NCBI RefSeq assembly: GCF_011947285.1
Contig: NZ_JAAOZT010000003.1
Location: 186,001 to 250,000 of the forward strand
From: Glaciimonas immobilis
Lineage (GTDB): Bacteria > Pseudomonadota > Gammaproteobacteria > Burkholderiales > Burkholderiaceae_D
Direction: 5' to 3'
Length of the DNA stretch: 64,000 nt
The notes under the pieces were generated by a model. The model was not told the origin of the DNA. It was given only the letters and a program-made list of their open reading frames with translations, and ran no database searches. Shown here in pieces: positions 9,153 through 63,032 of this stretch (positions are counted from its first letter, which is position 1; each line of letters starts with the position of its first letter). The translations under genes and the position numbers were made by a program.

Positions 9153-9281
9153 GCAGGTGCCTGCGTAGATACTTTGTAGCTACTCAGGCAAAAAGCCGAC
9201 TTCACAATCAGCTCCTCTGCCATTTCCTGCCTCATTCCCCATTCACCCAGATATCCACACCAGAATTACTCCCCCGCAACG

Positions 9282-11366: not shown

Positions 11367-11826
11367 GATTTCCTCTCACACCGGCAGCCAACATCGCTAA
11401 CACCATCGCGCCAACCGCGACACAGGTTAATCGATAGCGTAATTCGGTGAACCATCCCGGCAAACCATACCAGACAAATAAACGTTTATCCACTTGATAA
11501 GCGGCAATGAACCCAAGGATCAATAAAGTATACCCATACGCAAAGAACAAAGTAGAAAACCAGGCAATCATTGTCGGCATGATTCCCCAGATTAGCGCCC
11601 ACTTGGTGCGCTGTGCGGACATATCGGCACGCAAGACCATCGCACCCCAATGAATCCCGCCGAGAAATGATAGCGCTGCGACGCCATACGCCATCTGACC
11701 GCGAATAAACTCACCAAGCCAATCAGGGCTGACCAGCCAGCAAGCAATTGTCAACATGACAAAGGGAACTAAGCCCAGGTAACCGAGGACGAGGATCAAG
11801 CGTTTATTCAGGAAGTGTGGATTCAT
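11356..11826 (-). CDS. DUF3429-like integral membrane protein
   Basis: A small membrane protein of about 156 residues with four to five hydrophobic segments (LILVLGYLGLVPFVML, AALSFLGGIHWGAMVL, WGIMPTMIAWFSTLFF, LLILGFIAAY, VAVGAMVLAMLAAG). The FLGGIHWG motif is characteristic of DUF3429. Its function is unknown. I prefer the ATG at 11826; a GTG at 11865 would add 13 unlikely residues, and neither has a clear ribosome site. Its end overlaps the start of the M61 peptidase, so the pair is probably co-transcribed. Confidence 0.8.
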   Translation of the reverse strand: MNPHFLNKRLILVLGYLGLVPFVMLTIACWLVSPDWLGEFIRGQMAYGVAALSFLGGIHWGAMVLRADMSAQRTKWALIWGIMPTMIAWFSTLFFAYGYTLLILGFIAAYQVDKRLFVWYGLPGWFTELRYRLTCVAVGAMVLAMLAAGVRGNLGA

Positions 11827-12008
11827 TGCGGAGGATAGACTGGTTAGTGAAGCGCAGCAAGGCACCGTGCGGCAAACTGAGGAGTCTGTCGAACCCAGGA
11901 ATTAGCCGGGCGGTGGATGGAAGCAGCCAGTCTACCGGTATTGTTGGGAAACCAATGCAGGCTTAGTCAATTACCGGACCGGTGCACGTTCAAACGACTG
12001 ATAAGGGT

Positions 12009-12608
12009 TCAGGAATGTGGTATATCGGCGACGGTATCGATATCCAGCAAGATACCAGGATCGTCGACAACCACTTCGACCACTGGAAAGCGTTGCAACA
12101 ACCCACGCGCGCCCTGGTCGCCGCGCAGTTGCAATAACTGTGACAAATGCCGATGACTAAAGGCGACCGGATTACCACGACGCCGATTGTGCACGGGCAC
12201 TGCTATATCAGCGCCTTGCGCCAACGCCGCCGTCAACGCCTTAATGGTATCGACGGCAACAAAGGGCATGTCGGCTAATGCAATCACCCACCCTGTCGCT
12301 GCCGAAGTCTGCTGAAGACCATGCACCAGCGTAGCCGCCATGCCATCGTCGGCATCCGCGCAATACAGCAGTGTGCAGCCACCAACAAGTTGCGATAACA
12401 ATTGTGCAGTCAAAGTGGGTGTATCCGGTCGGCAGACGACATAAGTTGGTAACGCCATGGACAACCTGCTGGCAGCGCTGGCCAAAACGGTGTTCCCGTT
12501 CGGAAGAAGTTGCAAAAGTTTACTCTGCTCACCGGTTGGATCAAAGCGGCGACCGCGCCCAGCGGCGAGTAAAATACCTACTATCTGGCCGGTTATCGCT
12601 GTATCCAT
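12009..12608 (-). CDS. MocA-like molybdopterin nucleotidyltransferase
   Basis: A 199-residue NTP-transferase of the MobA/MocA type. These enzymes transfer CMP or GMP to molybdopterin. The nucleotide-binding loop is LLAAGRGRRFDP near residue 12, the metal site is in ALADMPFV, and RGNPVAFS is the family's third motif, closer to MocA and its relatives than to MobA. No molybdenum enzyme gene is seen nearby, so the client is unknown. It stands alone between the DUF3429-like gene and dsbC on the same strand. Confidence 0.85.
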   Translation of the reverse strand: MDTAITGQIVGILLAAGRGRRFDPTGEQSKLLQLLPNGNTVLASAASRLSMALPTYVVCRPDTPTLTAQLLSQLVGGCTLLYCADADDGMAATLVHGLQQTSAATGWVIALADMPFVAVDTIKALTAALAQGADIAVPVHNRRRGNPVAFSHRHLSQLLQLRGDQGARGLLQRFPVVEVVVDDPGILLDIDTVADIPHS

Positions 12609-21486: not shown

Positions 21487-22400
21487 TTCTCCGTGGATGC
21501 TGGTCGGGGGTGGCCCGACAGCCAGTTACTTTTTTTTGCTTCGCCAAAAATAAGTAACCAAAAAAAAGGCGACCGCAGAGACGCTGCCCTTCGGGTCCCC
21601 AAGCGTTTTAGCCATCAGTCGGGTCGAAATACCAACTCGCTACGCTCAAACATGTATTCCGACAATTCCCGCCTGATGACTAAAACACTTGGCAGCGCCA
21701 ATGACGGGGTACGTCAAGGACCGCTTCAAAAGCAACCGCAACGTCAAAGGTGGCTGCGCCTGCAACTTCAAGAACAACGTCAAAGGTGGCTGCGCCTGCA
21801 ACTTCAAGAACAACATCAAAGGTGGCTGCGCCTGCAACTTCAAGAACAACATCAAAGGTGGCTGCGCCTGCAACTTCAAGAACAACGTCAAAGGTGGCTG
21901 CGCCTGCAACTTCAAGAACAACATCAAAGGTGGCTGCGCCTGCAACTTCAAGAACAACATCAAAGGTGGCTGCGCCTGCAACTTCAAGAACAACATCAAA
22001 GGTGGCTGCGCCTGCAACTTCAAGAACAGCATCAAAGGTGGCTGCGCCTGCAACTTCAAGAACAACATCAAAGGTGGCTGCGCCTGCACGGTCGTCTTGT
22101 GATTTACGAGAACAACTCTGCCAATACAAAGGCTGCGGTTTTTGACGTTGACGTACCCCGTCATAGGCGTTGCCGATTATTTCGGCTGTCAGCCGGGAAT
22201 TGTCGGCATACATGTTTGAGCGAAGCGAGTTGGTATTTCGACCCGACTGATAGTCGAAATAATCGGGGACCCGCCAACGGCGGGCGACGCGTCTGCGGTC
22301 GCCTTTTCTTTGGTTACTGTTCTTTTAGTCGGGGCGCCTAGCCAAGCAAAAGAAAGTGCCCGGCTGTCGGGCCGCCTCCGGCTAGCACCCACGGAGAAGT
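21487..22400. repeat. 0.9-kb palindromic repeat element
   Basis: Two long imperfect inverted arms, about 21487-21720 and about 22142-22400, flank a 36-bp tandem array. Each arm carries, from outside in, CTTCTCCGTGG, GGCCCGACAGCC, a GTAACCAAA block, AAGGCGACCGCAGA, CAGTCGGGTCGAAATACCA, CTCAAACATGTAT and TGACGGGGTACGTCAA. The arms contain smaller hairpins. Elements with the GTAACC/GGCGACCGC motif are, to my recollection, dispersed in Burkholderiales intergenic regions. Open frames run through it on both strands but look like by-products of the repeats. It separates cbbK from cbbA. Confidence 0.8.
21740..22087. repeat. 36-bp tandem repeat array, 9.7 copies
   Basis: Nine complete units and one of 24 bases. 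Each unit begins AACGTC or AACATC, continues AAAGGTGGCTGCGCCTG and ends CAACTTCAAGAAC. Copies differ almost only at one G/A position (one copy has AACAGC at the start). There are no spacers. As 36 is a multiple of three, five of six frames stay open, giving 12-residue repeats such as WLRLQLQEQHQR or KGGCACNFKNNI, so openness is not evidence of coding. Confidence 0.92.
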
Positions 22401-34276: not shown

Positions 34277-34867
34277 TTAAGGCAGCATCCGCTGGAACAC
34301 ACCGTCCCGATCAATCAGCCTGTGCTTGAGTGCCGCCAGAACATGCAGTATGACGAGCGCTGCAAAAATAGCCCCTGCCACGTAATGAATCAAGCCAAAC
34401 ATATCGCGTAAAAAAGGATCTTCCCATCCCCATTTGGGCAGAGGAATGCCAAAAAATTTGACGCCGTACTTATTGAAAGACGATGACAGATATCCGGACG
34501 CTGGTTGCACGATCATGCTGAGGTATAACAGGCGATGACTCCATTGTGCCGACTTGACTTCCCATTGCGGCATACTTGATGGAAAAGGCGGTACGCGATG
34601 TGTGAAGCGCCATGCCAGTCGCAGCAAGATAAGCACGCCCGTCATTACCCCGAGCGATTTATGCAGGTTAAAATAATCAGCGCGCCCCGGCGTACCTTTA
34701 GGAATATTGATCATGTAATAGCCCAGCACCAGCAGACTAATAATCAACAGCCCGACCACCCAATGCATGACTATAGCGGGCGGGCGATACTTGGTCGCCT
34801 TGCCAACGCTGCTGACGCCTGACGTTAAATTTCTGGTGTCCGCCCCTCTGATGTTTTGCGCGCTCAT
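34277..34867 (-). CDS. cytochrome b561-type diheme membrane protein
   Basis: A 196-residue cytochrome b561 family protein. Four membrane helices are visible: IVMHWVVGLLIISLLVLGYY, GVMTGVLILLRLAWRF, LLYLSMIVQPASGYL and YVAGAIFAALVILHVLAAL. Histidines at MHW, LHKS, SHRLLY and HYV/LHVLAALKH are the likely heme ligands. Such proteins move electrons between periplasm and quinone pool. The ATG overlaps the stop of the beta-propeller gene by four bases (ATGA). It is the last gene of the receptor-propeller-b561 operon. Confidence 0.88.
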   Translation of the reverse strand: MSAQNIRGADTRNLTSGVSSVGKATKYRPPAIVMHWVVGLLIISLLVLGYYMINIPKGTPGRADYFNLHKSLGVMTGVLILLRLAWRFTHRVPPFPSSMPQWEVKSAQWSHRLLYLSMIVQPASGYLSSSFNKYGVKFFGIPLPKWGWEDPFLRDMFGLIHYVAGAIFAALVILHVLAALKHRLIDRDGVFQRMLP

Positions 34868-35904
34868 CTGATCGCAACACCCCAAGGTAAGGTGCCTACA
34901 GGGATTTCCTTGCTCACGGTATTTGTGGCGGTATCAATCACTGAGACGGAGTTGGAACGCCCGTTGGCCACGTACAGTTTTTTGCTATCAGGTGTGATCG
35001 CCATGTTCCATGGACGCTGGCCGACAGGGACGGTCGCTACCACTGTATTGTTGCTTGTATCGATAACCGAGACCGAAGCATCCTTGCCATTGGAAATATA
35101 AACGTGCTTGCCGTCGGGTGCCATCGCGACGCCATTGGAGAAGCTACCGGCCTTCACTTGCGCGATTACTTTATGGGTTGCCACGTCAAGCACATAGACC
35201 ATACTACCTAGTTCCGCAGCGATGTAAGCAGTTTTTCCATTGGGCGTAAATGCGATGCCGCGCGGGCGCTTGCCGAGGACCACCAAGTCAACTTGTTCGC
35301 GCTTGGTCATGTCGATAATATCGAGCGAGTCTGCCTCTTCCGCACTGACATAAAGCCATTTTCCATCAGGACTGAATTCGGCATGCTCCGGATTTTTGCC
35401 TTTGGTTTTGATGATGAACTCTTGCTTGTTGGTGTCGGTTGAAATGAAATTGACCGAGTTGGTTATTTCGCTTGCCGCGACCACCCATTTACCATCAGGG
35501 GAAATGCCAACGCCTTCTGGTGACTCACCCACGGCGACTTTACCAACGACCGCTTTTTTTTGAAGATCAACGATTAATAAGGAATTGGTCGGTTGATCGC
35601 TGACATACAACGCCTTGCCGTCGTGTCGCACAGCAAGACCGCGTGGTTTGGTACCGGCTTTGATTTCGTTTACAACCATATCGGTGGCAGTATCAATCAC
35701 GGAAATAGTGCCTGACTTTTCATTTGGAACGTAGGCGAACGGACTAGCGCTTGCAATCGACGGCAACACCCCTAATGACAGCGCCGATAATACCGCGCCC
35801 ACCATTATTGTTTTACGTGCAGCACCGATTGCGGACAAAGGCCGGACATAAATCCCATGTGGGAATGTGGTCAGCGATGGTTGCTGCAAAAAATTTAACT
35901 TCAT
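34864..35904 (-). CDS. periplasmic YVTN beta-propeller protein
   Basis: A 346-residue exported protein with about seven repeats of the YVTN type (TISVIDTATDMVV, LYVSDQPTNSLLIVD, VYISNGKDASVSVIDT, LYVANGRSNSVSVIDT). It resembles the PQQ-dependent catabolism-associated propeller family. A signal or anchor helix spans about residues 33-53 (TIMVGAVLSALSLGVLP), after a longer than usual leader. It lacks the Trp-docking motifs and CC pair of PQQ enzymes, so it is not a dehydrogenase. It lies between a TonB receptor and a cytochrome b561, suggesting a role in metal or cofactor handling for alcohol oxidation. Confidence 0.85.
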   Translation of the reverse strand: MKLNFLQQPSLTTFPHGIYVRPLSAIGAARKTIMVGAVLSALSLGVLPSIASASPFAYVPNEKSGTISVIDTATDMVVNEIKAGTKPRGLAVRHDGKALYVSDQPTNSLLIVDLQKKAVVGKVAVGESPEGVGISPDGKWVVAASEITNSVNFISTDTNKQEFIIKTKGKNPEHAEFSPDGKWLYVSAEEADSLDIIDMTKREQVDLVVLGKRPRGIAFTPNGKTAYIAAELGSMVYVLDVATHKVIAQVKAGSFSNGVAMAPDGKHVYISNGKDASVSVIDTSNNTVVATVPVGQRPWNMAITPDSKKLYVANGRSNSVSVIDTATNTVSKEIPVGTLPWGVAIR

Positions 35905-35978
35905 GGTAAAGCCTCTCTAATAATGTAATTCCGACTATTCAGCTACAAGGCATGACAGCCTCTTCAAGTAAGCTGCCA

Positions 35979-38246
35979 TTAACTCCATGAATATCTTAAA
36001 CCAACCCAGCCTCCGCGCGGTGCGCCGGGACCGATAAATTGCTCATTAGAAACGCTATTACCGTCCAACGAACGTCCTGGTCCGTTAAAGTAGTTTTGTC
36101 CAAGCACGCCAAAGTTTGCGTACTGGCGGTTGAACAGATTGTCAACCCGCGCGAAAATTTGCAACCGCTTGGTGACCAAATACGTGGCGTCAAGATTGAC
36201 CATGGTATAGCCAGAAATTTTGCCGTTAGCATCCTGATTATTTTCATCGCCACGGGCATAAATACTGCTGCGATACACGAAGTTGGTGCCGACATTCCAC
36301 GCCGATGTCGGCGCATAATCCAGACGCAGCTTGAGGGTATTTTGCGGGATGCCCGGTAGCTTATTCCCGCGATTGACCGCGATATCGCCGATGGCGTTGG
36401 CGCTTGAGTTACTACCGCTATGTTCCACGAAAGCAGTCTGATAAGTGGCATCAATATAGCTGTAGCTGATTGTCACGCCAACTGGGCCAACGACAGTATG
36501 ACCCGCCAGTTCCAGGCCTTGTCGACGGGTTTTACCGACGTTTTGAAAATACCCGGTGCTGGCTGACGCCCCGCTACTGCTGATAAATTGAATGTCATTA
36601 TCAAGCGCGGTCCTGAATATTGACCCGCTCCAGCCAGAGGCGGCACCCAGTTTGCCGCGCAGGCCAAACTCACCTGTTCTGGCGATCACGGGCTTTAACG
36701 CCGGATCCGCAATAAAGTTATTTGGCAACGTGCAAGGGGCGTTTGGGTCCGCGCAGGCTAGTTCGATGGCGGTCGGGGTACGCATGCCTTCGTTATACGT
36801 TGCATACGCCGTTAGCGCAGCGTTGGGGTTATACGTCACACCCACACCGGGATTGAAGCGCGTAAAAGTATTCTTGCTGTTCAGCAGCGGCTGATTGCCG
36901 GTCTGGTCGCTGATGTTAACCCGCGCATAGTTGTAACGACCAGAACCGGTCACCGACCATTGATCGTTAAGTGCTAACGTGTCGGAAACAAAAATACTGA
37001 GGTTGCTATTATGCGTTTTGGCATCCGTACCTAACGTAAAGTCGTTCAATCCTAACGTGTCGCGGCTGGCAGTAAAATTAGCATCCTGCCGCAGTTGCTT
37101 GAAACGTGAATTTGCAAAATCACCAGAAATACCGCCCACAATATGATTGTCCATTGTGCCAAGCTTTCCGATATAGCTCAGTTGCGTCCCGAATCCATAA
37201 CTGCCCTGCTTCACCATAGAGCGCGTGTTATTGGCCGAGACCGGATTTGTTATCGCGTCGTAGTTTTGATTCACATTGCTACTAGAATTATCGTTGCGAT
37301 AATTGCGATAGTACGCATTGGTCGATAGCTGCAAATTATCATTATAAAAATGACTCGCGGATAAATTCCATAGCTGCGCGCGGTTTATATTCTTATCGGG
37401 AAAAGTATAAGCCTGGCGCCGGTTGTCCAGGAACGCACGCGGAATCGTTTGCATGCCCTGCAGGTCGTTATCAGCCGCCGTTAAACTTAACGAGGCTGTT
37501 GTGGCTGCGTCCTGATAACCTATTTTTCCAAAAAACTGTTTGACGCTACTCGGGTTGTGGTCGGCCCAGCCCTTGTCTTTGGAGTCGTTCGCGGTCAAAA
37601 AATAATCGATATTACCGACGGTTCCGCCTTGCTCCACCTCAACGGTCTTGCGACCAAACGCGCCACCGGACACTTCAACCTGACCGCCAGGATTAGTCCG
37701 ACCGTTCTTGGTCGTAATCGCCAGCGCGCCGCCGAGTGTGTTAAGGCCAAAAACCGGATTGGAACCGGGCATCACCTGCAAGTTGGCAATTGCCGACTGT
37801 GGCAACAGATCCCAGTTGACGACATCGCCGAATGGTTCGTTGATGCGTACGCCGTCCTGAAACACGGAAAGACCTTGCGGCGTGCCCAGCAAAGGCGATG
37901 CAGTAAAACCACGATAGTTAACATCCGGCTGATAGGGATTACCCTGCGCCGAATTGATCGTGACACTGCTCAGATTTTGCTCAAAAAATTCAGTAATATT
38001 GCCAGCGTGCTGGCGCGTAATATCTTTGCCGGATACTGACTGTACGCTTGCCGCGACATCGCGCAAGGGCAGACCCAGGCCGGGTAACGGCGTTGTGCCG
38101 GTTACGACGATCTCGGGCAAATTTTTATCGGTTGCGGTAAATGTTTCGGCTGCAAAAATTGGACCGTGGAGCAATAATATGACACTCCCCAAAAGACTAC
38201 TCAAAGCCAATTCAGTAGCGCCGGGCACAGATTTCCAGTACGCCAT
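35979..38246 (-). CDS. TonB-dependent outer membrane receptor
   Basis: A 755-residue outer membrane receptor. It has a signal sequence (ALSSLLGSVILLLHGPIFAAE), a TonB-box-like PEIVVTGT, a plug domain (about 50-170, with VNYRGFTASP, GLSVFQDGVRINEPFGDVVNW and GLNTLGGALAITTKNG) and a 22-strand barrel ending in the aromatic WVGLRYSWS. AGGAG precedes the ATG. The ligand is unknown. A sigma-54 promoter match upstream, like those at pqqA and xoxF, points to a substrate tied to methanol oxidation. A lanthanide chelate is my favoured guess; iron siderophore or cobalamin are alternatives. Confidence 0.92.
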   Translation of the reverse strand: MAYWKSVPGATELALSSLLGSVILLLHGPIFAAETFTATDKNLPEIVVTGTTPLPGLGLPLRDVAASVQSVSGKDITRQHAGNITEFFEQNLSSVTINSAQGNPYQPDVNYRGFTASPLLGTPQGLSVFQDGVRINEPFGDVVNWDLLPQSAIANLQVMPGSNPVFGLNTLGGALAITTKNGRTNPGGQVEVSGGAFGRKTVEVEQGGTVGNIDYFLTANDSKDKGWADHNPSSVKQFFGKIGYQDAATTASLSLTAADNDLQGMQTIPRAFLDNRRQAYTFPDKNINRAQLWNLSASHFYNDNLQLSTNAYYRNYRNDNSSSNVNQNYDAITNPVSANNTRSMVKQGSYGFGTQLSYIGKLGTMDNHIVGGISGDFANSRFKQLRQDANFTASRDTLGLNDFTLGTDAKTHNSNLSIFVSDTLALNDQWSVTGSGRYNYARVNISDQTGNQPLLNSKNTFTRFNPGVGVTYNPNAALTAYATYNEGMRTPTAIELACADPNAPCTLPNNFIADPALKPVIARTGEFGLRGKLGAASGWSGSIFRTALDNDIQFISSSGASASTGYFQNVGKTRRQGLELAGHTVVGPVGVTISYSYIDATYQTAFVEHSGSNSSANAIGDIAVNRGNKLPGIPQNTLKLRLDYAPTSAWNVGTNFVYRSSIYARGDENNQDANGKISGYTMVNLDATYLVTKRLQIFARVDNLFNRQYANFGVLGQNYFNGPGRSLDGNSVSNEQFIGPGAPRGGWVGLRYSWS

Positions 38247-38320
38247 ATTTCTGTCTCCTGATTATATTTTTTTATTTACTGCCTTGTGACTGTAAACCAT
38301 CGGCAATGCCAATTCCCTGA

Positions 38321-38337
38321 TGCAATATCCATGCCGG
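38321..38337 (-). promoter_or_regulatory. sigma-54 promoter of the TonB-receptor operon
   Basis: On the minus strand: CGGCATG, GATA, TTGCA. The invariant GG and GC are 10 bases apart and 10 of 12 consensus positions (TGGCACG-N4-TTGCW) match. It would start transcription about 65 bases before the receptor ATG. Confidence 0.7.
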
Positions 38338-38390: not shown

Positions 38391-39065
38391 TTACCGGGCC
38401 TGTAATATTTTTACAATGTCCAGATGGCTATTCTCCTGTGCCATTTCCAGCACACCCTTGCCACGATTATCGAGCAGCTGCGAGTCTGCGCCGCGCGCCA
38501 ATAGCGCCTCAACCGTGGCCGGGAAACCGGAGGCCCCGGCCCACATCAGCGCCGTGAGGCCATTTTCGTAGGAAGTATTGACCTTGATCCCGCTCTCAGG
38601 ACCCGTTTGCAGCAACATATTAACGATCTCAGTTTGCCCAGTGCCGGCGGCGTAGACCATAGCTGTTTTATGCACTTGATCGATTGCGTTGACGTCTGCC
38701 TTTTTGTCGATCAACACCCGCGCCATGGCAGGACGCCCAAAGTACGCAGATGCCATCAAAGGCGTGACTTTTGCCACGTTTGCCAGATTAACGTCTGCTC
38801 CGCGCGCTATGAGCAATAACATGATGTCCATCTGACCGTTTTTAATGGCGCTCATCAATAACGAATCGCCGAGCCGATTACGGGTATCGGGTGAAGCCCC
38901 TGCCTCAATAAAGCCCTTGAAAGTCTGGGCATTGCCGCTACGGGCGGCAGCCAGGGCCTGGCGGTTCAGATCAACCTGCGCATCGTTGGCGGAGGCGTTG
39001 CTGAAAAATGCCGAAACAGCTAAAGACAAAATACATTTTAAAAATATGGAACGACCTGTATACAT
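38391..39065 (-). CDS. exported ankyrin repeat protein
   Basis: A 224-residue protein with a signal peptide (ILSLAVSAFFSNASAND) and about five ankyrin repeats (for example GDSLLMSAIKNGQMDIMLLL, VTPLMASAYFGRPAMARVL, LTALMWAGASGFPATVEALL). Ankyrin repeats bind other proteins; the partner is unknown. It lies between the TonB receptor (same strand, downstream) and the divergent PQQ alcohol dehydrogenase. Periplasmic ankyrin proteins often accompany redox enzymes such as catalases, but that is only an analogy. Confidence 0.87.
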   Translation of the reverse strand: MYTGRSIFLKCILSLAVSAFFSNASANDAQVDLNRQALAAARSGNAQTFKGFIEAGASPDTRNRLGDSLLMSAIKNGQMDIMLLLIARGADVNLANVAKVTPLMASAYFGRPAMARVLIDKKADVNAIDQVHKTAMVYAAGTGQTEIVNMLLQTGPESGIKVNTSYENGLTALMWAGASGFPATVEALLARGADSQLLDNRGKGVLEMAQENSHLDIVKILQAR

Positions 39066-39362
39066 ACTAAATTATCCTGTTGAAATGTGCTGAATTGTGG
39101 CCAAATTACTTGCCGCCTGGTGCCGACTTATTTGCAGGCTCCACGCTAGTTATTTTTCCGAATTATGATGCTAGACCTAGAAAGGAGAATATTACCGACC
39201 CATTTTATATTTAATACATTGCAATATGAATTAGAGATATTATGCTGACGGGGAATTATCATACAAGAAATCAAGTTTCAAATTTTGATTTAAACCCTTC
39301 AAAACAATAAAGTATTGCCTAAAGCTAACGTTGCACAAAACAACATCATTAAGGGAATCAGT

Positions 39363-41090
39363 ATGAGAATGGCAAATTACAAAATAATAGGACAGATTGC
39401 TCTGGCGACGAGCATGTTAGTCGCCACGGTAGTAAGCAGCGCACAAGAGACGGAAGGCGGCGCTGGCATCAAGATTCCACCAATGGCTAAAGCACTGGCA
39501 CCGGTCAATCAAGCCATGCTTGATGGCGCGGCCAAAGACAGCAAGAATTGGCTGCACACCAACGGAGATTACGCGCAAACGCGTTTTTATCCATCAGCGC
39601 AAATTAATTCAAAAAACGTAGCAACACTAAAGCCTAAGTTCGTGTTCCAGACTGCTATTGTCGAGTCTATGGAGACGGCACCAATTGTGGTCAATGGCGT
39701 GATGTTTTTGACTACTTCCTATAATCATGTGTACGCAGTAGATGCTGTCACAGGTCAGGAATTCTGGCACTTCAAACACAAAATGGGACCAGTAACAACA
39801 TTTTGCTGCGGACCAAACAATCGTGGTGTCGCCGTTTCGGATGGCAAACTGTACATGGGCACGCTGGATTCCAAGTTGATTGCACTGGACACCAAAACCG
39901 GCAAACTGCTATGGGAAACCGAAATCGCTGACCCGGAAAAAGGTTACAGTGAAACCATGGCACCAACGGTTGTAGACGGCAAAGTGCTGATCGGCACCAA
40001 TGGCGGCGAATACGGCATCCGCGGTTTCGTTAAAGCCTTCGACGCTGCGTCAGGCAAGCTAATCTGGACGTTCTATACCATCCCAGAAAAAGGCCATGAA
40101 GGCGTATGGGCTAAGAACGATGCAACCGGTCGTGATTTGCACCGTGACATCGCTGCAGAAAAAGTTGCCTTTGCGAAAAAATCAAATTTTCACGAGACTT
40201 TGGGTGGCGGCGTCTGGACAACCCCAGCAATTGATCGTGCGACTAAAACGGTCTTTTTTGTTGTAGGCAATCCATCTCCTGATTTGTATGGTGCTGAGCG
40301 TCCTGGCGACAATCTGTACACGGATTCACTGGTCGCAATCAATCTTGATACTGGCGCATACAAGTGGCACTTTCAATACATCGCTCATGACGTATGGGAT
40401 TTGGACTCGGTCAGCCCACCGATCCTGGTCGATGTAAAAGACAAGAGCGGCAAGATGGTTCCTGCAGTGATCCATGCTGGCAAAACCGGTCATGTATATG
40501 TGCATAACCGTAACGACGGCACTTTGATTCGCTTCTCTGAAGCCATGGTTCCTCAAGAAAACATGTGGGCGCTTCCAACCGCTGCGGGTACGCGTATGTT
40601 GCCGGGTGCTAACGGTGGTGTGGAATGGTCCCCAATGGCCTATAACGCCGGTGCACGCCTGACTTATGCCTTGAATTTGAACCAACCGATGACTTATCAG
40701 GTAGATGGATCAAACTATCCAAACGGCAAATTGTGGTTAGGCGGCGCGTTTAAAAACGCTGCGGGCGAAGAGCAATCAGGCAACGTAACCGCCGTCAATA
40801 TCGATACCGGCAAGATCGCATGGCAGGCAAAAACCGACCAACCAATGATCGGTGGCGCATTGGCAACAGCGGGCAATCTGGTGTTTGCAGGCGAAGGTAA
40901 TGGCTTGTTCAAGGCTTATGACGCTAAAACCGGCAAAGTGCTATGGCAATTCCAATGCGGCGCGGGCGTTAATGCACCGCCAGTGTCCTACTCTGTCAAC
41001 GGCAAGCAATACATCGCTGTCGCTGCGGGCGGCAACTCACAGATGGACTTCAAGCGCGGTAACAGCGTTTTTGTCTTTGCTCTACAATAA
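39363..41090 (+). CDS. PQQ-dependent alcohol dehydrogenase, probably lanthanide type
   Basis: A 575-residue periplasmic quinoprotein oxidising alcohols. The ATG at 39363 has AAGGGA ahead and gives a signal peptide ([18 protein letters not shown]). The eight-bladed propeller has the vicinal cysteines TTFCCGPNN near residue 147, and repeated DxKTGKxLW blades. The metal-site segment is [11 protein letters not shown] near residue 346: the second Asp, two residues after the catalytic one, is the mark of lanthanide enzymes. It has no fused cytochrome domain. It is more like PedE/ExaA-type enzymes than XoxF, so its substrate may be ethanol or another alcohol. A cytochrome c gene follows. Confidence 0.88.
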
Positions 41091-41284
41091 GTCTCAGGGA
41101 AGTTCATTTGCGATCTGATGCGGCTTACAAAAATCATTACCGCGCAATAGGATTGTGAATGCCGTTTAAGAGATATTATGTCTGTCATCTCAGGCATGTA
41201 ATTTGCAAGTAAGTACCGGAAAGAGGGCGCATTCATAGTGAAGCGGCCTCTTTCCTTATAGTTGACCACTGGATACCGAATAAC

Positions 41285-41869
41285 ATGAAAGTTGCACACA
41301 TCGTTTTTGCGGCAATAACCGCACTCTCCGCCCTCTCCTTTCAAAGCCATGCCGCCGATATCGAAGCGGGCAAGAAAAAAGCGGAAACCTGCATAGCCTG
41401 CCACGGGGTTGCCGGCAATTCGACCGTGCCGATGTTTCCGGTATTGGCGGGTCAAAGCGCACGCTATCTCTACCTTGAGCTCCGCGACTTTAAAGAAGGC
41501 GCGCGCGTTAACCCGATGATGAGCCCGATGGCCGCGAATCTATCGAAGGAAGACATGCAGGACCTGGCGGCTTATTTTGCCGCCCAAATACCAACCCCGA
41601 TCAATTTTAAGGCCGACCCGGCAAAGGTAAAGTTGGGTTTTGCCAAGGCCGAAGAAGTGCTGTGCTCCATGTGTCATCTGGGCGCGATGAAGGGACAGAA
41701 CGAGATTCCTAAACTGTCCGGGCAACACTATGACTATATTGCTAAGCAACTTACCGACTTTAGAGCTCGCGCGCGGACCAATGACGCTGGCAACATGACA
41801 GCCGTGACCAAAAATCTGACTGACGATGACATTGTTAATTTGTCACAGTACATCGCTAACATTCACTAA
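41285..41869 (+). CDS. diheme cytochrome c (c4-like)
   Basis: A 194-residue periplasmic cytochrome with a signal peptide (VFAAITALSALSFQSHAAD) and two heme motifs, CIACHG near residue 37 and CSMCH near 126, each with a downstream Met (NPMMSPMA, AGNMTAV). The two halves resemble each other as in cytochrome c4. It lies 194 bases after the PQQ alcohol dehydrogenase and is its most likely electron acceptor. Confidence 0.9.
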   Translation: MKVAHIVFAAITALSALSFQSHAADIEAGKKKAETCIACHGVAGNSTVPMFPVLAGQSARYLYLELRDFKEGARVNPMMSPMAANLSKEDMQDLAAYFAAQIPTPINFKADPAKVKLGFAKAEEVLCSMCHLGAMKGQNEIPKLSGQHYDYIAKQLTDFRARARTNDAGNMTAVTKNLTDDDIVNLSQYIANIH

Positions 41870-42254: not shown

Positions 42255-42270
42255 GGGCATGAAAATTGCT
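42255..42270 (+). promoter_or_regulatory. sigma-54 promoter of pqqA
   Basis: GGGCATG, AAAA, TTGCT: GG and GC are 10 bases apart and 10 of 12 consensus positions match. Transcription would start near 42281, about 95 bases before the pqqA ATG. Confidence 0.7.
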
Positions 42271-42374: not shown

Positions 42375-42449
42375 ATGAACTGGACTACACCTGCATTTAC
42401 AGATCTACGTTTTGGTTTTGAAATCACTATGTACATTGCAAATCGTTAA
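42375..42449 (+). CDS. pqqA: PQQ precursor peptide PqqA
   Basis: The 24-residue peptide from which PQQ is built. It reads MNWTTPAFTDLRFGFEITMY then IANR; Glu16 and Tyr20 in E-x3-Y spacing are the residues cross-linked by PqqE. GGAG lies eight bases before the ATG. It is followed by a hairpin that should lower read-through into pqqB. Confidence 0.95.
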   Translation: MNWTTPAFTDLRFGFEITMYIANR

Positions 42450-42600: not shown

Positions 42601-43527
42601 ATGCAAATCATTGTGTTAGGCTCGGCCGCTGGTGGTGGATTTCCACAATGGAACTGCAATTGCCATAACTGCAATGGGCTGCGCAATGGCACCATTAACG
42701 CAACGGCTCGCACGCAATCATCGATTGCCGTCTCCGCCAACGGCAGCGATTGGGTGTTGATCAACGCGTCCCCCGATATTTTGACCCAGATTCGTAATAC
42801 ACCGGCACTGCAACCCAACCGTCACCAACGCGACTCCGGTATTGCAGCGGTCGTCCTGATGGATGCGCAAATCGATCACGTGACCGGTTTGCTGATGCTG
42901 CGTGAGGGCAAGCAATTGCCGATTTATTGCACCCCATCGGTGTGGGACGATCTCACCACCGGCTTGCCGTTAATGCATGTGCTGTCGCACTATTGCGGGG
43001 TGCAATGGCATCCGCTGCCAACCAACAACCACGTCACCCAATATCCTGCGATCCAGGTTCCTGGCATAGACGGCATCAGCTTTACTGCGCTGCCGCTTAA
43101 AAGCAAAGCCCCGCCCTACTCTCCGCATCGCGAGCAACCGCAGGTAGGGGACAATATCGGTTTGCTGATTGAAGAAATAGCGACTGGCAAAAAACTGTTT
43201 TATGCGCCCGGTCTGGGCGCACTGGAGCCACACATCGAGAACGCCATGCGCACTGCAGATTGCGTTCTGGTGGATGGCACCTTATGGACCGAAGACGAGA
43301 TGATCACACTGGGATTTTCCAAAAAGAAATCCGCGGATATGGGGCATTTGCCGCAAACCGGTCCCGGCGGGATGATAGAGGTGTTGGACGCGATGGACAC
43401 GCCTCGCAAAATTCTCATTCACATTAATAATACCAATCCAATTCTGGACGCCGATTCGCATCAGCGCGCGACCTTGACGCAGCACGGAATTGAAGTGGCC
43501 TTCGACGGTATGGAGATTACGCTATGA
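42601..43527 (+). CDS. pqqB: PqqB, metallo-beta-lactamase-fold PQQ synthesis protein
   Basis: A 308-residue cytoplasmic protein that hydroxylates or otherwise processes the PqqE/F product during PQQ synthesis. The start [19 protein letters not shown] is the family hallmark, with the zinc-binding CNCHNC. The metal region [12 protein letters not shown] is the modified lactamase motif. It begins about 150 bases after pqqA and its stop overlaps pqqC by four bases (ATGA). Confidence 0.96.
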
Positions 43528-44240
43528 ACGCCAACACAAAAGAAGCCACCGCAGTCGCCGCGCCGTGGGACCGCACCGAATTCGAAGCGCAGTTACGCGC
43601 CAAAGGTGCCGGCTACCACATCCATCATCCGTTCAACGTCAAGATGACCAACGGCGAATTGACCCACGAGCAGATTCGCGGATGGGTCGCCAACCGGTTC
43701 TACTACCAGATCATCATTCCGCAAAAAGACGGTGCCATCATTTCAAATTGCGATGACCGCGAGACCCGCCGCAAATGGGTGCTACGTATTCTCGATCATG
43801 ACGGCTGGGAAGATAACGAAGGCGGGATCGAAGCATGGACCGCACTAGGTAAGGCTGTCGGCATCTCCCGCGAAGATTTATGGTCATTGAAATTTGTTGT
43901 GCCGGGCGTTCGTTTTGCCGTCGACGCGTATCTTAATTTTGCCCGCCGTTCACCATGGCAAGAGGCGGTCTGCTCATCGCTGACAGAGATGTTTGCGCCC
44001 AAAATTCACAAGGACCGGTTAGCTAACTGGCCGCAACATTATCCGTGGATAGAAACCACCGGATTACAATATTTCCGCAGTCGCATTTCGCTGGCAGAAC
44101 GCGATGTCGAACACGGATTGGCAGTAACGCTGGATCACTTTACGACGCGCGTGCAGCAAGATCGTGCGCTGGATATTTTACAGTTGAAGCTCGACATTTT
44201 GTGGTCAATGCTGGATGCGATCGATAAGGCGTATCCTTAA
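43524..44240 (+). CDS. pqqC: pyrroloquinoline-quinone synthase PqqC
   Basis: A 238-residue cofactor-free oxidase for the last step: ring closure and eight-electron oxidation to PQQ. Landmarks are [37 protein letters not shown], and [16 protein letters not shown], which hold the catalytic His, Tyr and Arg. The ATG overlaps the pqqB stop. The C-terminal helix [16 protein letters not shown] is typical. Confidence 0.97.
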
Positions 44241-44419
44241 GCTATCAAGCGGTCGTTCACTTTCGATAAACGAGCGACTCAACACTTATGCGTAAAAAGA
44301 TTGGCAAAAAACTTGTAAAAGTTTGGCAATAAAAAAGAGACAAATTGCATGCTGAGCACTCCTCAGTAGCGATTCAGCCACCCTTGACCCTATCTTCCGT
44401 GATCACATCCGACACCACT

Positions 44420-44683
44420 ATGAGCGCTTATCCTGAGAAACCAAAGTTATCCAAACTGTTTCGATTGCAATGGGAAGAGACGCAGAATAATTACGTGCTG
44501 TTGTACCCAGAGGGCATGGTTAAACTCAACCAAAGCGCCGCAGAAATCTTGAAACGCTGCGATGGTGAGCGCGATTGCGCTGCCATCGTCAGTGATTTGG
44601 AGACCACTTTCGGGATGCAAAATTTGCTCGCTGATGTAGAGGAATTTTTGCGTACCGCCGATGCACAAGGCTGGATAAGGTGA
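44420..44683 (+). CDS. pqqD: PqqA-binding chaperone PqqD
   Basis: An 87-residue carrier that binds PqqA and presents it to the radical SAM enzyme PqqE. The conserved core is [20 protein letters not shown] and [17 protein letters not shown]. The ATG at 44420 matches the usual length. The frame is open upstream, with a GTG at 44399, but no ribosome site decides. Its stop overlaps the pqqE start, as in most pqq operons. 180 bases separate it from pqqC. Confidence 0.93.
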
Positions 44684-45915
44684 TCAACATGACCGGACAG
44701 ACACAGCAAGCTGATCAGGCCCAAGAGGTTGAGGTGGTCAATCGGGTGGCGGATAGCGCGGTCCAGGATTTTGTCGTAACACCGCCATTGTGGCTGCTGG
44801 CCGAACTCACTTATCGCTGCCCTCTGCATTGCGTATTTTGTTACAACCCGCTGAATTACGCAGAAAACCGCAACGAATTAACCACCGATCAATGGTTTGA
44901 CGTAATGCGTCAGGCGCGCAAACTCGGTGCCGCACAGCTCGGCTTTTCTGGCGGCGAACCACTGCTGCGGGATGATTTGGAAGAGTTGATCGCTGAAGGT
45001 CACCGACTGGGTTATTACACCAACCTGATTACTTCCGGCGTCGGATTAACCGAACCGCGAATCGCCCGCATGAAGGAATTGGGCCTGGATCACATCCAGC
45101 TATCGTTCCAGGACTCGACCAAGGAAATGAACGATTTCCTGACCAGTACCAAAACCTTTGATTTGAAATCGAAGGTCGCCAAACTGATTAAGCAATACGA
45201 CTACCCAATGGTGCTAAACGTCGTCCTGCACCGCTACAATCTGGATCATATCGACCGCATTATCGAGATGGCGATTGAGATGGATGTGGAGTATCTGGAA
45301 CTCGCCAACACGCAATATTACGGCTGGGGTCTGGTCAACCGCGCGCATCTGCTGCCATCGCGTGAGCAGTTACAACGTGCCGAAGCGACTGTGAATGAAT
45401 ATCGCGCCAAGCTTGGTAACAAGTTGCGTATTTTGTTCGTAGTGCCGGACTATTTTGAAGAGCGCCCGAAGGCTTGCATGAACGGCTGGGGTTCGGTATT
45501 TTTAGCCGTCGCCGCCGACGGCGCAGCGTTGCCGTGTCACGCTGCAAGATCGTTACCCGGCCTTACTTTCCCCAACGTGCTGGAAGACAGCATCCACGAT
45601 ATTTGGCACCACAGTGACGCATTCAACCGCTACCGCGGCGACGCCTGGATGAAAGAGCCGTGCAAGACTTGCCCTGACAAAAAGAAAGATTTTGGCGGTT
45701 GCCGCTGTCAGGCCCTCGCCTTGACCGGTGACGCAACCAACGCCGACCCGGTATGCAGTAAATCGCCACACCATGACGCGCTACAAACCATCGTTCTGCA
45801 CGCCCAACCGACTAAGAACGGCGTACCGCAAACTGTTACGCAACCGATACTGTTCCGTACTGATGCCAACTCGATGCGATTTGCTAGCGCTGGTGCTGAG
45901 TCCTCAAATAAGTAA
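44680..45915 (+). CDS. pqqE: PqqE radical SAM enzyme
   Basis: Joins Glu and Tyr of PqqA by a carbon-carbon bond, the first step of PQQ synthesis. It has about 411 residues. The SAM cluster is CPLHCVFC (Cys 47, 51, 54), [10 protein letters not shown] is the GGE motif, and the SPASM region has CMNGWGS, PCHAARS, CKTCPDK and GGCRCQA for two auxiliary Fe-S clusters. The start is a GTG overlapping the pqqD stop; an ATG nine bases on is equally possible. The operon ends here: no pqqF is seen. Confidence 0.97.
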
Positions 45916-54570: not shown

Positions 54571-55117
54571 CAGGTGGCTCCAAAATATTTAATAGACGTA
54601 TTCTGCTATCGGAGAAAGGAGGCAAATCGAATCCGGATAAATTTTGGCTGAAAATGCCGCAATTACGTCCGCATTTGCGTCCCATCCTTTCTAGCAGTAA
54701 GCTTCACTCCATACGGCGGGCAAATCGAGATCACAGCGTTTACAATGTCATACGTGAAGTAATCTGCGTTCCGTAGCGCGACGTCGGAAAAAGCTGCGAC
54801 GTAGCGCCATATACTCATGCATTCATTATTTGTATTGATCAGTGCAAATTGTTACGCTTCCGCACCACTAAAACTTCGCACTGCTCCGAAAATCACCCAT
54901 TGCTTATCAACAACACATTCTTATTTGACACCATTCGTTCACCACTGTAGCCCATGAGACGCCGTGTTGAGGTAGTATCAAGTAACAAATAAAACAATTG
55001 CAAAGAGTATGCGGGATAGTTATACCCGATATAAGCAAAAACCAGTCCACAAAATACGATCGACGTTTAACGCGCGCAATCCCACGTCAGATTGAAATGT
55101 TGGTCAGAGGAGACACC
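54571..55117. other. divergent control region of adhC and the sigma-54 activator
   Basis: About 547 bases without a convincing gene, though the frame of the activator is open from 54998. It should hold both promoters. A weak minus-strand -24/-12 candidate lies at 55033-55048 (TGGACTG, GTTT, TTGCT), but it is 460 bases from adhC. TTGACA at 54925 lacks a good -10 partner. Confidence 0.45.
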
Positions 55118-57079
55118 ATGACAGTACTAGCCGCAAGTCACGTTAAACACGTGCGCTCGGTTGTTCAAAGAGGCATGCAGCCCGGTAGTGGTCTCGCGGG
55201 CGATCCGATCGTTAATTCCTGGATAAGATGTCTGAACGAATATAGTCTGGACCCGGACAATTGTGATGAGCCCGTCATCATCGGGCATGTCGAACTGCAG
55301 GAGCGACAGGCGCGTCTGGCCGATGTTCAAGAAGTAGCTAAAATTGAAATGGCGAACCTGTATCAGCAACTGGCTGGCTCCGGCTACGCTATCATGCTGA
55401 TGGATTGTGATGGCGTTTTGCTTAATTATTTCGGCGATCCCAGCTTTACCCACGCGGCGTCCAAAACCGGTCTCATGCAAGGCGCGGTCTGGAGCGAGCG
55501 CCTGCAAGGTACTAATGGCATGGGCACATGCCTGGTAGAGAAAAAGCCGATCATTGTGCATCAAAACGAGCACTACCTTTTACGCAATATCGGCATCAGT
55601 TGTGCCGCAGCACCTATCTGCAATCATCGGGGCGATGTACTGGCGGTACTGGACGCATCGGGCGAGTCACGCCTTGCACAACAGCACACATTGGCACTGG
55701 TCAATATGTCGGTACAGATGATCGAAAATCGGGTTTTTCTGCAGCAGTTCCATCGCGAGTATATCGTGCGGTTTCATAACCGCCCGGAGTTCGTGGGTAC
55801 GCTTAGCGAGGGTGCCATTGCGTTCGACAGCGCGGGGACCATTTTGGCCGCGACGCGCTGTGCGCAGTTCCAGCTTGGGGTACGTTCACCTGCCGAGATT
55901 TACGGCCGCAACATCACTGAATTGTTTAACGTATCGTTACCGGGCTTACTGGATAGCAGTCTTAAAAAAGCGTTCCATCCGACCCCGATTTTTGAAGTCC
56001 GCAGCGGTGCCCGTTATTTTGCAGTGATTTATCCCCCCGAGCCGACACCCGGCGCATCGCGCCTGTTGACCGTCAAACACGATTCAGGCAAGCCAGCATC
56101 GACTCAGCGCAGCGCGCTTGATGAACTGCATTTTGGCGACCTGACGATGCTCAATAACGTGCAGGCCACCAAGCGCGTTCTGGAGCGCGATGTGGCTATC
56201 ATTCTGTGCGGCGAGACTGGGACCGGCAAAGAGATGTATGCCAAGGCAACGCATCTTTCCGGCAGTCGCTCGCAGCAACCGTTTGTCGCTATCAACTGCG
56301 CCTCTATTCCGGAATCGTTGATAGAGAGTGAACTGTTTGGCTATAAGTCTGGCGCGTTCACGGGCGCTAGCAAAGACGGACAGCGCGGCAAGATATTTCA
56401 GGCTAACGGCGGAACATTATTTCTCGATGAAATTGGTGATATGCCGATGTCTTTGCAAGCGCGCCTGTTGCGGGTTTTGGAGGAGCGCGAAGTTACGCCG
56501 CTGGGCGCAGACAAGCCGGTTAAACTAGACATTCGGTTGATCAGCGCGACGCATTGCGATTTGCAGGAAAAGATCGCACAGAATTTATTTAGAGAAGATT
56601 TGTATTACCGCCTTCTGGGCTTGACCGTGACACTTCCCGCGCTGAGAGAACGCACAGATCGCCATGGATTGATCAAGCATCTTCTGCTGAAAGAAGCTGG
56701 CGACGAGGTGGTAGAGATTGATGATGCGCTATTAGCTGTATTTGATCACCACCGCTGGCCGGGCAATATTCGCCAGATGCGTCATCTTTTACGCACAATG
56801 ATCGCACTGCGTGAAGGCGACCTGCTCACCGCTTGCGACCTGCCTAATGGCTTCTACACCGGCCCGTTGCCGACCGCTGGCTGTGGTGACTGCGCTGGAG
56901 CTTCCGAGGAAGCCCGCAATCCTCTGGAGAACGCAGAACGCGATGCGCTGATTCAGGAACTGGAACAACACAACTGGAATATCACCACGCTGGCCAAACA
57001 ATTGAAGATGAGCCGTAACACGCTGTATCGAAAAATGCGTCGTCTGGACGTCAAGGATCTGGATAAAATATCGCTGTAA
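55118..57079 (+). CDS. sigma-54 activator with GAF, AAA+ and Fis-type HTH (AcoR-like)
   Basis: A 653-residue enhancer-binding protein that drives sigma-54 promoters. The N-terminal sensor is GAF-like (about 70-240, AIMLMDCDGVLLNYFGD ... QGTNGMGTCL), then a PAS-like part. The AAA+ domain has GETGTGKEM near residue 366, GAFTGA near 412 (sigma-54 contact) and FLDEIGD. The C-terminal Fis HTH reads NITTLAKQLKMSRNTLYRKM. AGGAG supports the ATG at 55118. Its position between adhC and the xoxF cluster, plus three -24/-12 promoters nearby, makes it the likely activator of methanol oxidation. Confidence 0.93.
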   Translation: MTVLAASHVKHVRSVVQRGMQPGSGLAGDPIVNSWIRCLNEYSLDPDNCDEPVIIGHVELQERQARLADVQEVAKIEMANLYQQLAGSGYAIMLMDCDGVLLNYFGDPSFTHAASKTGLMQGAVWSERLQGTNGMGTCLVEKKPIIVHQNEHYLLRNIGISCAAAPICNHRGDVLAVLDASGESRLAQQHTLALVNMSVQMIENRVFLQQFHREYIVRFHNRPEFVGTLSEGAIAFDSAGTILAATRCAQFQLGVRSPAEIYGRNITELFNVSLPGLLDSSLKKAFHPTPIFEVRSGARYFAVIYPPEPTPGASRLLTVKHDSGKPASTQRSALDELHFGDLTMLNNVQATKRVLERDVAIILCGETGTGKEMYAKATHLSGSRSQQPFVAINCASIPESLIESELFGYKSGAFTGASKDGQRGKIFQANGGTLFLDEIGDMPMSLQARLLRVLEEREVTPLGADKPVKLDIRLISATHCDLQEKIAQNLFREDLYYRLLGLTVTLPALRERTDRHGLIKHLLLKEAGDEVVEIDDALLAVFDHHRWPGNIRQMRHLLRTMIALREGDLLTACDLPNGFYTGPLPTAGCGDCAGASEEARNPLENAERDALIQELEQHNWNITTLAKQLKMSRNTLYRKMRRLDVKDLDKISL

Positions 57080-59592: not shown

Positions 59593-60528
59593 CTAGTTTG
59601 CCGATACTAAAAGATTACCTTGATCATCGACCAGCAAAACACCGTACTCTCGCAGGATCGCTGTAATTTGTGGCTGATTTTTTGCGATCAACTGATCAAT
59701 ACGGTCCTTGAAACCCTTTTCGCCATATCGAACGCCCATCGCGATACTAAAATCCATACGCATGTTGGGCTGTGATTTAAACGGGATAGCGGCGATCGGT
59801 ACGGTAGTGGCCTTTTTAGCAAAGTAGCCGCCAATCGGTCCCCACACAAAAGCCACGTCGATCTTGCCGGAAGTCAGATCCTTCTCGACCATTTCACCCG
59901 GGTATTGCGCTGGATCGCCGGTCTGGGTCTGATAGGACACCATCTGATCGGCTAGTCCATTTTTAAGCATCCAGTCCACGACCGGGGACCGTCCGAATAC
60001 GCCTAGCCGTAATGTTTTTAATCTGGCAGGATCGAGCTTGAGCAGGTCATCCGGCGTTTTGATATCGTCAAAGCCCTTACCCTTTACATACGCCATTGAA
60101 TAGGTGGAGTGGTAATAAGGCCTGGTAGTGGCACCCAGATCAAATCCGACTGCAACACCGGTCACCAGATCGCATTCGTACTGGTCCGAATCAGGCAGTT
60201 TCTTCTTCAATGTGTTCCTTACGTAGCCCATGCGTTGCGGGTACCACGTGTACTCAATTTTCCAACCTAATTCTTTCGCGAAAAGTGCCGCAATCTTGTT
60301 TTCAAAGCCCATTAGTTTCTGGTTTGAAAACGGCATGTTGTTAGGGTCCTGACAAACCCGTAAAACTTTCTCATGTTCAGGTTCAGGTGCGGGTACTTCA
60401 GCCATAGTGAGATTTGAAGCCAAGGCAGCGCTCAAGAAAATCCCAGCCATACTGCAGTGCCACATACCGTGCAAAGGACGGCTCAGCCTTGCAACAATTG
60501 CGATACCAGAATTTGAGAGTGAGTTCAC
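59593..60528 (-). CDS. xoxJ: XoxJ-like periplasmic binding protein
   Basis: A 311-residue solute-binding-type protein, of the quinoprotein-dehydrogenase-associated family. A signal helix (MAGIFLSAALASNLTMAE) precedes VLRVCQDPNNMPFSNQ, GFENKIAALFAKELGW and VDVAFVWGP, the family landmarks. XoxJ/MxaJ proteins bind and probably mature or activate the dehydrogenase. The start is a GTG overlapping the cytochrome gene by four bases; a later start at MWHCSMAG is possible. Confidence 0.9.
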   Translation of the reverse strand: MNSLSNSGIAIVARLSRPLHGMWHCSMAGIFLSAALASNLTMAEVPAPEPEHEKVLRVCQDPNNMPFSNQKLMGFENKIAALFAKELGWKIEYTWYPQRMGYVRNTLKKKLPDSDQYECDLVTGVAVGFDLGATTRPYYHSTYSMAYVKGKGFDDIKTPDDLLKLDPARLKTLRLGVFGRSPVVDWMLKNGLADQMVSYQTQTGDPAQYPGEMVEKDLTSGKIDVAFVWGPIGGYFAKKATTVPIAAIPFKSQPNMRMDFSIAMGVRYGEKGFKDRIDQLIAKNQPQITAILREYGVLLVDDQGNLLVSAN

Positions 60529-60947
60529 TTTGGTATCAACTTCAGGTTGCCTGTTTTGATGGCACCATCGGAGCGGCCTTTAAGAAACGCATAAAGGTTA
60601 TCGATATTATCTGTCACTTGCTTGCTGCCGTTAAAGTTCGGCATACCTTTTTCCATCCGGCCTAAAAGAACCGTCGTTTTGAACTGCTCTTTTGTCAGAA
60701 CTTTGAGACTGTCCACTAATGCGGGACCAACTAATCCCTGCTGGTTTGCACCATGGCAGCGTTCGCATGCCATGGCGCGCCAGGTGTGCCAGCCATCAAG
60801 CGTGCCCTGATCCACTTTGTTGCCATCGACCACTGTATAGGGCGTGTCTGCAGCATTGGCGACACCGACTGCTCCTAACAGTACGCCGCTAAAAATCGCA
60901 GCCTGAACTGCTGCCTGAAATATTGTTTTTATGATGCTTGTAGTCAT
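60525..60947 (-). CDS. xoxG: XoxG-like cytochrome c
   Basis: A 140-residue periplasmic monoheme cytochrome with a signal peptide (AAIFSGVLLGAVGVANAAD), heme motif CERCHG near residue 61 and a distal Met in KGMPNFNG. It should take electrons from XoxF. It follows xoxF by 110 bases, a gap occupied by a long perfect hairpin, and overlaps the xoxJ-like gene. Confidence 0.9.
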   Translation of the reverse strand: MTTSIIKTIFQAAVQAAIFSGVLLGAVGVANAADTPYTVVDGNKVDQGTLDGWHTWRAMACERCHGANQQGLVGPALVDSLKVLTKEQFKTTVLLGRMEKGMPNFNGSKQVTDNIDNLYAFLKGRSDGAIKTGNLKLIPK

Positions 60948-63015: not shown

Positions 63016-63032
63016 AGCATAGAACGTGCCAA
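63016..63032 (-). promoter_or_regulatory. sigma-54 promoter of xoxF
   Basis: On the minus strand TTGGCACG, TTCT, ATGCT: 11 of 12 positions of TGGCACG-N4-TTGCW match, with GG and GC 10 bases apart. Transcription would start about 135 bases before the xoxF ATG. Confidence 0.8.

Follow-up and report, generated by a model that had tools for sequence, protein, structure and literature searches.

Genetic evidence shows that M. extorquens depends on LutH to take up La (PMC7391723), as M. aquaticum 22A does on the related TonB_Ln (PMC9301485). Among the transporters of methanotrophs, LutH-like receptors have been described as having the widest distribution (PMC12482762), and the conservation of receptors with XoxF was already known from earlier work cited in PMC6839425, which also places LanA at less than 20% identity to the M. 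extorquens receptors. A TonB receptor and a YncE propeller have been drawn beside xoxF3 for Acidobacteria and Gemmatimonadetes (PMC10875860).

We scrutinized a 64,000-nucleotide stretch of the Glaciimonas immobilis genome (hereafter the window) that carries an operon encoding a TonB-dependent receptor, a YVTN beta-propeller, and a cytochrome b561. The receptor shares its family, clade, and family-specific residues with LutH of the Methylorubrum/Methylobacterium lut cluster and with TonB_Ln of strain 22A and, as in the lut cluster, a propeller gene (there lutB) is part of the cluster and the locus is linked to PQQ and XoxF genes. Unlike the lut cluster, the window operon has an additional b561 and a sigma-54 type promoter, and its receptor is only 31% identical to LutH. 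The xoxF3 loci likewise place a receptor and a propeller beside a lanthanide methanol dehydrogenase, a likeness drawn from their description rather than their sequence (PMC10875860). PqqU (YncD) with YncE is also a TonB receptor with a propeller and represents the nearest solved fold; in contrast to PqqU, the window receptor lacks the PQQ signature and falls in a separate clade, and the genome encodes a separate PqqU. PedA2/LutB of the lanthanide ABC importers are also secreted YVTN propellers; the window propeller is 37% identical to LutB, but scores below the family cut-off and has no adjoining ABC genes. In LcoA-BcnA of Burkholderia, a b561 and a secreted partner are again encoded in one operon, but that partner is a YceI lipocalin and its role concerns lipid peroxidation (PMC9113575).

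Our search of freely accessible journal papers returned no published b561 partner of a lanthanide TonB-dependent receptor, the main text of PMC10875860 does not contain the term cytochrome b561, and no LutH-type receptors in Burkholderiales were described in the titles and abstract openings found. What appears to be new is therefore the b561 as a partner; the receptor type was known and a receptor with a propeller near xoxF3 had already been drawn. Most likely, the operon supplies the envelope components for acquiring lanthanides, with putative helper roles for the propeller and b561 and probable sigma-54 co-control. A pairing of propeller and b561 would indicate a step missing from the lut model. 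The receptor recurs with identified partners in genera of which strains are in culture (Paraburkholderia, Caballeronia, Collimonas), so that its role can be tested directly.

Organization of the operon and its surroundings

On the minus strand, from 38246 down to 34277, the genes run in the order receptor, propeller, b561 (Table 1). A gap of 74 bp separates the receptor and propeller genes, and the propeller stop TGA and the b561 start ATG overlap as ATGA, bearing out the first-pass annotation, which had described three tightly arranged genes overlapping at the last junction. Its assignment of lanthanide-type DxD motifs to both dehydrogenases of the window also stood, these reading WDLD in the PQQ alcohol dehydrogenase, whose TIGR03075 score of 473 bits lies slightly below the cut-off of 480, and WDYD in the XoxF-type enzyme.

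Table 1. Features of the receptor operon and its genomic surroundings (window coordinates)
Feature	Coordinates	Strand	Basis and remarks
Cytochrome b561, 196 aa from ATG	34277..34867	-	PF01292, 113 bits
Periplasmic (secreted) YVTN beta-propeller, 346 aa, distantly LutB/PedA2-like	34864..35904	-	YVTN repeats, TIGR03866
TonB-dependent receptor, LutH family, 755 aa	35979..38246	-	Pfam Plug and TonB_dep_Rec_b-barrel
-24/-12 (sigma-54 type) site CGGCATGGATATTGCA	38321..38336	-	Ends 74 bp upstream of the receptor ATG
Secreted ankyrin-repeat protein	38391..39065	-	Ank_2; upstream of the receptor, between receptor and dehydrogenase
Lanthanide-type PQQ alcohol dehydrogenase, DxD motif WDLD	39360..41090	+	TIGR03075; ORF opens at TTG 39315
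-24/-12-like site before the cytochrome c gene	41192..41207	+	
Cytochrome c, two matched stretches	41285..41869	+	PF00034/PF13442
-24/-12-like site before pqqA	42255..42270	+	
pqqA	42375..42449	+	24 aa; name by reading; coordinates counted from the translation
pqqB, pqqC, pqqD, pqqE	42601..45915	+	Names by reading the sequence
AcoR-like sigma-54 activator: GAF, AAA+ with GAFTGA, Fis HTH	54998..57079	+	Pfam; GAFTGA read
Cytochrome c and periplasmic binding protein, labelled xoxG/xoxJ by us	59593..60947		Beside xoxF
XoxF-type methanol dehydrogenase with DxD (WDYD)	61058..62869	-	Motif
-24/-12-like site TGGCACGTTCTATGCT before xoxF	63016..63031	-	

The order receptor-propeller-b561 was repeated in all three same-genus neighborhoods with the receptor (L032, L033, and L035), where the ankyrin-repeat protein was also kept at 65 to 72%; a fourth same-genus genome (G014) gave no receptor match. 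The nearest named match to the window receptor, among the best 80 of 553 relatives, was the receptor of a metagenome-assembled genome called Glaciimonas (L105; 80% identity), the same record as L034 (G053). Propeller and b561 were absent from the stretch of L034 read. In this locus (7939..12465), a gene whose product carries a transposase-associated domain flanks the receptor on both sides; one of its two copies was scanned. Elsewhere in the window, a repeat stretch (21493..22341) has several frames open, giving repetitive mock proteins.

The receptor belongs to the LutH family

LutH rows were found using lanmodulin as bait, which matched 20 of 398 phylum-wide genomes at E 1e-8, and 15 of the resulting neighborhoods were read. 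Two of these (L085 and L086) had a lut-like order with the receptor directly beside lanmodulin and ABC genes, the propeller of L086 being LutB by place and family (517.5 bits to TIGR03866), and in a third (L098) the receptor adjoined lanmodulin. No similar receptor was present among the called ORFs of the other 12 neighborhoods; in five genomes (G179, G255, G476, G506, and G525) a receptor match lay on the same contig, 17 to 22 kb from lanmodulin and outside the stretches read.

The window receptor scored 326 to 328 bits (31% identity) against the LutH rows of lut clusters and 263 bits against the receptor of L098, vs. 117 bits against Escherichia coli PqqU and at most 55 bits against CirA, BtuB, FepA, FecA, and FhuA. 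In the receptor tree, 31 rows of the window family and LutH type formed one group (SH-aLRT 100) and four PqqU rows stood apart (100); branches to the outgroups were long, drawing a program warning, and less confidence attaches to the root, the placement of the outgroups, and the branching within the LutH-like group. The receptor thus groups with LutH and apart from PqqU, FhuA, FepA, FecA, CirA, and BtuB; clustering with an iron or B12 clade, which the first-pass annotation had named as refuting its proposal, was not observed. Residues invariant in 14 LutH-like rows and mostly different in nine other receptors include D146, R489, E495, C498, C505, D514, R530, D551, and E668 (window numbering); these are candidates for a carboxylate-rich site. 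The AlphaFold model of the receptor reached a pLDDT of 79.9 and a pTM of 0.82. We consider it probable that the receptor is an importer of a lanthanide complex, as was first proposed from the window alone, on the basis of its LutH clade and its co-occurrence with DxD dehydrogenases and lanmodulin.

Receptor distribution follows lanthanide-type dehydrogenases and lanmodulin

In a family sample of 145 genomes, 51 were receptor-positive at a threshold of E 1e-40 and 59 had a TIGR03075 match at E 1e-60, all of which were covered by the 90 regions read for 123 dehydrogenase matches. At least one DxD enzyme was present in 56 of these 59 genomes. A DxD dehydrogenase was found in 48 of 51 receptor-positive vs. 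8 of 94 receptor-negative genomes (p 3e-26, a guide only, since the genomes are related and p values overstate their independence), with G007, G010, and G053 being the receptor-positive genomes in which no DxD enzyme was found. The three genomes with dehydrogenases but no readable DxD all lacked the receptor, the site being masked in one of them; G072, without the receptor, was the sole genome in which just a D-x-S enzyme was read and represents a single case. As a control, another, unrelated TonB receptor encoded in this genome showed no link to PQQ dehydrogenases across the same 145 genomes (8 of 25 vs. 51 of 120, p 0.38).

The DxD motif was also tried as a means of telling a lanthanide ligand from PQQ, and was abandoned as nearly all dehydrogenases read carry it. 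Because DxD enzymes are the majority in the family sample, their co-occurrence alone cannot separate lanthanide from PQQ, and lanmodulin served better. In the phylum sample of 398 genomes, 37 had the receptor and 66 an XoxF-like dehydrogenase (E 1e-100, a looser criterion), the latter occurring in 35 of 37 receptor-positive vs. 31 of 361 receptor-negative genomes. The receptor was present in 16 of 20 lanmodulin genomes, which are confined to few families, vs. 21 of 378 without lanmodulin. Within the 66 dehydrogenase genomes, it was present in all 16 with lanmodulin vs. 19 of 50 without. The four lanmodulin genomes lacking the receptor were among the weakest lanmodulin matches, two having internal stops. 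This co-occurrence with lanmodulin speaks for a lanthanide, not PQQ.

A conserved sigma-54 type site precedes the receptor

The operon had been read as carrying a sigma-54 promoter like those of pqqA and xoxF, and the corresponding sites were recovered at all three (Table 1). Six sites in the window scored at least 42 of 46, vs. one to four in each of 10 simulated sequences; scores like that of CGGCATGGATATTGCA were thus also reached in simulated sequences, and score alone proves little. Besides the receptor site, the six best included those before the cytochrome c gene, pqqA, and xoxF, which are rightly oriented and score at least as high, while the other two are intragenic (coding).

Conservation, rather than score, is the convincing basis for the receptor site. 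Of five relatives checked, four retain the -24/-12 element ahead of the receptor gene, which it precedes by 81 and 84 bp in same-genus L032 and L033 (G077 and G054) and reading CGGCACGGATGTTGCT in L035 and L034 (G096 and G053); L036 (G087), the fifth relative, had no -24/-12 site upstream of its receptor. Similar sites preceded pqqB in both same-genus loci holding that gene (L032 and L035) and the cytochrome c gene in two of three loci (L033 and L035, none in L032). Across 79 of 80 named receptor loci, one having been left out for too little upstream sequence, a site scoring at least 40 occurred within 450 bp upstream in 19, vs. 58 of 1580 stretches drawn at random from these loci (Fisher 5e-10, relatedness ignored). 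Since 60 of the 79 lacked such a site, sigma-54 control of the receptor is not general. The AcoR-like activator encoded in the window would be the likely driver of the receptor promoter. In Collimonas (L037, 7555..11295), a perfect -24/-12 site lies 41 bp before a run of cytochrome c, SBP_bac_3 protein, and receptor genes, and the order in L038 is similar.

Propeller and b561 recur as partners of the receptor

The named loci are the best 80 of 553 relatives and belong mostly to Burkholderia, Paraburkholderia, Caballeronia, Trinickia, and Collimonas. Within about 10 kb of the receptor, homologs of the window's pqqB, pqqC, and pqqE were found in 65 of these loci, an XoxF-like dehydrogenase in 26, and an AcoR-like activator in 27. 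A b561 was encoded in 41 and a propeller in 38, with both present in 36 and one alone in seven, confirming the propeller-b561 set noticed at first pass as real and unusual. Neither pqq nor dehydrogenase genes were within reach in 10 of the 80 loci, several of which lie on short contigs. In the family sample, 11 of 27 neighborhoods with a LutH-like receptor showed a pqq, dehydrogenase, propeller, or b561 homolog and 16 showed none; this set excludes the receptors of L058, L063, and L064, high-GC loci in which antisense ORFs had been called. All 35 dehydrogenases read in this set, 26 from the named loci, seven from family loci, and the two of the window, carried DxD.

Two architectures were common, one joining the receptor with a sigma-54 activator and a dehydrogenase and the other joining it with b561, pqq genes, and the propeller; an AcoR-type activator was within reach in just one of 43 loci with a propeller or b561. 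The genus of the window combines the sigma-54 site with the propeller and b561. In L117 (3382..13289) and L135 (Caballeronia/Paraburkholderia), a GXGXG-domain protein, formylmethanofuran dehydrogenase subunit-like by reading, is encoded together with b561, pqq, receptor, and propeller genes, and L117 also holds a response regulator and a kinase; L135 is the locus of Paraburkholderia xenovorans LB400.

The window propeller scored 254 bits against TIGR03866, below the cut-off of 287.3, and 176 bits (37% identity) against LutB. Its identification as a LutB ortholog was not accepted, given this score and a tree that did not resolve. The operon b561, one of seven PF01292 members over the cut-off in this genome, is 58 to 60% identical to the linked b561s of Sideroxydans, 41 to 48% to those of Burkholderiaceae, and 38% to the nearest own paralog compared. 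Receptor- and pqq-linked b561s grouped at 93/92 in a tree with the two nearest paralogs, which is not decisive; the tree with paralogs was distorted by long branches, and one of six paralogs had no match and was left out.

A proposed route for lanthanide acquisition

We propose that the LutH-family receptor takes a lanthanide complex across the outer membrane, energized by TonB. The periplasmic propeller would then hold the metal or complex, or hand it on for the loading of XoxF and the neighboring DxD alcohol dehydrogenase, a hand-over role suggested by its likeness to LutB. The b561 is a heme protein of the inner membrane that would be in electron exchange with the quinone pool and may work with the propeller on the periplasmic side of PQQ/lanthanide metabolism. 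Through its sigma-54 promoter, the set would be induced jointly with pqqA and xoxF, with the AcoR-like activator as the probable trigger. The b561 can be read in two ways, as the propeller's redox partner during handling of the complex or as a CybB-like protective enzyme. The suggestion in the first-pass annotation that it reduces the chelated metal was not supported. Ln(III) other than Eu is not known to be reducible by biological donors; reduction of Ln(III) as such by b561 is implausible on chemical grounds and was rejected, and nothing was observed of b561 acting on a metal or chelate.

CybB is described as a superoxide:ubiquinone oxidoreductase (PMC9113575, PMC11869295), and the protective reading keeps lanthanide uptake by the receptor while making the b561 a CybB-like superoxide:quinone oxidoreductase that guards against superoxide from PQQ enzymes, with the propeller as a structural partner. 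For the helper proteins this is a credible, if tentative, account. The sole solved relative found for the b561 was CybB (5oc0), five histidines were invariant in 18 of 18 b561 rows, and in most named loci having a b561 its gene precedes pqqB and is not beside the receptor. However, similarity to CybB was weak (33.5 bits to 5oc0, and 34.1 bits to the CybB-type model NF008566, below its cut-off of 170), in the window's genus, as in two loci of Sideroxydans, the b561 gene follows the receptor or propeller, and propeller and b561 are mostly present or absent as a pair (both in 36 loci, one alone in seven).

Returning to the proposed route, lanthanide use confined to the periplasm is possible, since this genome has no good match to LutF (best E 1.9e-9, 24% identity) and no lanmodulin at E 1e-8. 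An unlikely form of it would have the propeller and b561 as a redox module replacing the Lut ABC importer, with lanthanides staying periplasmic and the b561 passing quinol electrons via the propeller to a redox-active lanthanophore or Ce(IV), freeing the metal for XoxF. The strains then known to produce lanthanide dehydrogenases carried homologs of the ABC system (PMC6839425). If true, this reading would mean a second, ABC-free way of lanthanide use, widespread in Burkholderiales.

PQQ and iron as alternative ligands

Since the solved structures nearest to the receptor, both by sequence (E 2e-22) and by model fold, were YncD/PqqU and its best NCBIfam hit was also PqqU, PQQ was tested first. 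The identification of the receptor as PqqU, our first lead, was dropped after the signature residues were checked. The PqqU signature comprises an aromatic residue at position 99, R304, and R365 (PMC12124388), whereas the window receptor has L, Y, and F in place of Y99, R304, and R365, the Y99 position being securely aligned and the two barrel positions less sure at 23% identity. None of 27 family homologs aligned with the window receptor carried the signature. Three other aligned rows kept it and are taken, from these residues, as true PqqUs, one of them from this genome (G000:C12:800257-802191), where it coexists with the pqq genes. Against NF041535 (PqqU, cut-off 1200), the window receptor scored 133.6 bits, and even the genome's own signature-bearing PqqU reached just 542.

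It could still be argued that the receptor imports PQQ or a PQQ-metal complex instead of a lanthanide chelate, forming a second PQQ scavenging system beside PqqU. Such a reading draws on the PqqU-like structures and NCBIfam hit, on the pqq genes that accompany the receptor in 65 of the 80 named loci, and on four Burkholderiales genomes in which PqqU is syntenic to pqq genes (PMC12124388). It also draws on the propeller: E. coli pqqU adjoins yncE and, in L041 (13282..17282), a propeller 68% identical to that of the window comes directly after a signature-keeping PqqU, with no gap between them, so that this propeller type accompanies both receptor kinds. We nevertheless regard it as improbable, with the key residues replaced and with pqq genes and a PqqU already present in the genome. 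PqqU occurred in 81 of the 145 family genomes, with a less strong link to PQQ dehydrogenases (48 of 81 vs. 11 of 64), and in 41 of 51 receptor-positive genomes vs. 40 of 94 others, which is unlike two alternatives for one ligand. Moreover, the receptor follows lanmodulin even within dehydrogenase genomes, and LutH, its closer relative, has a lanthanide phenotype.

A reading in which the receptor serves ordinary iron-siderophore or heme uptake and lies beside PQQ genes by chance is very improbable: its siderophore and heme model scores resemble its PqqU score and a b561 in an iron-uptake setting might act as a ferric reductase, but it scored below the cut-offs of the siderophore, heme, and B12 models (TIGR01783, 126.3 of 223.5 bits; TIGR01785, 116.7 of 316.85; TIGR01779, 69 of 599.7) and at most 55 bits against FhuA, FepA, FecA, CirA, and BtuB, a sigma-54 site lies upstream, and its presence follows PQQ dehydrogenases while that of another receptor of the same genome does not.
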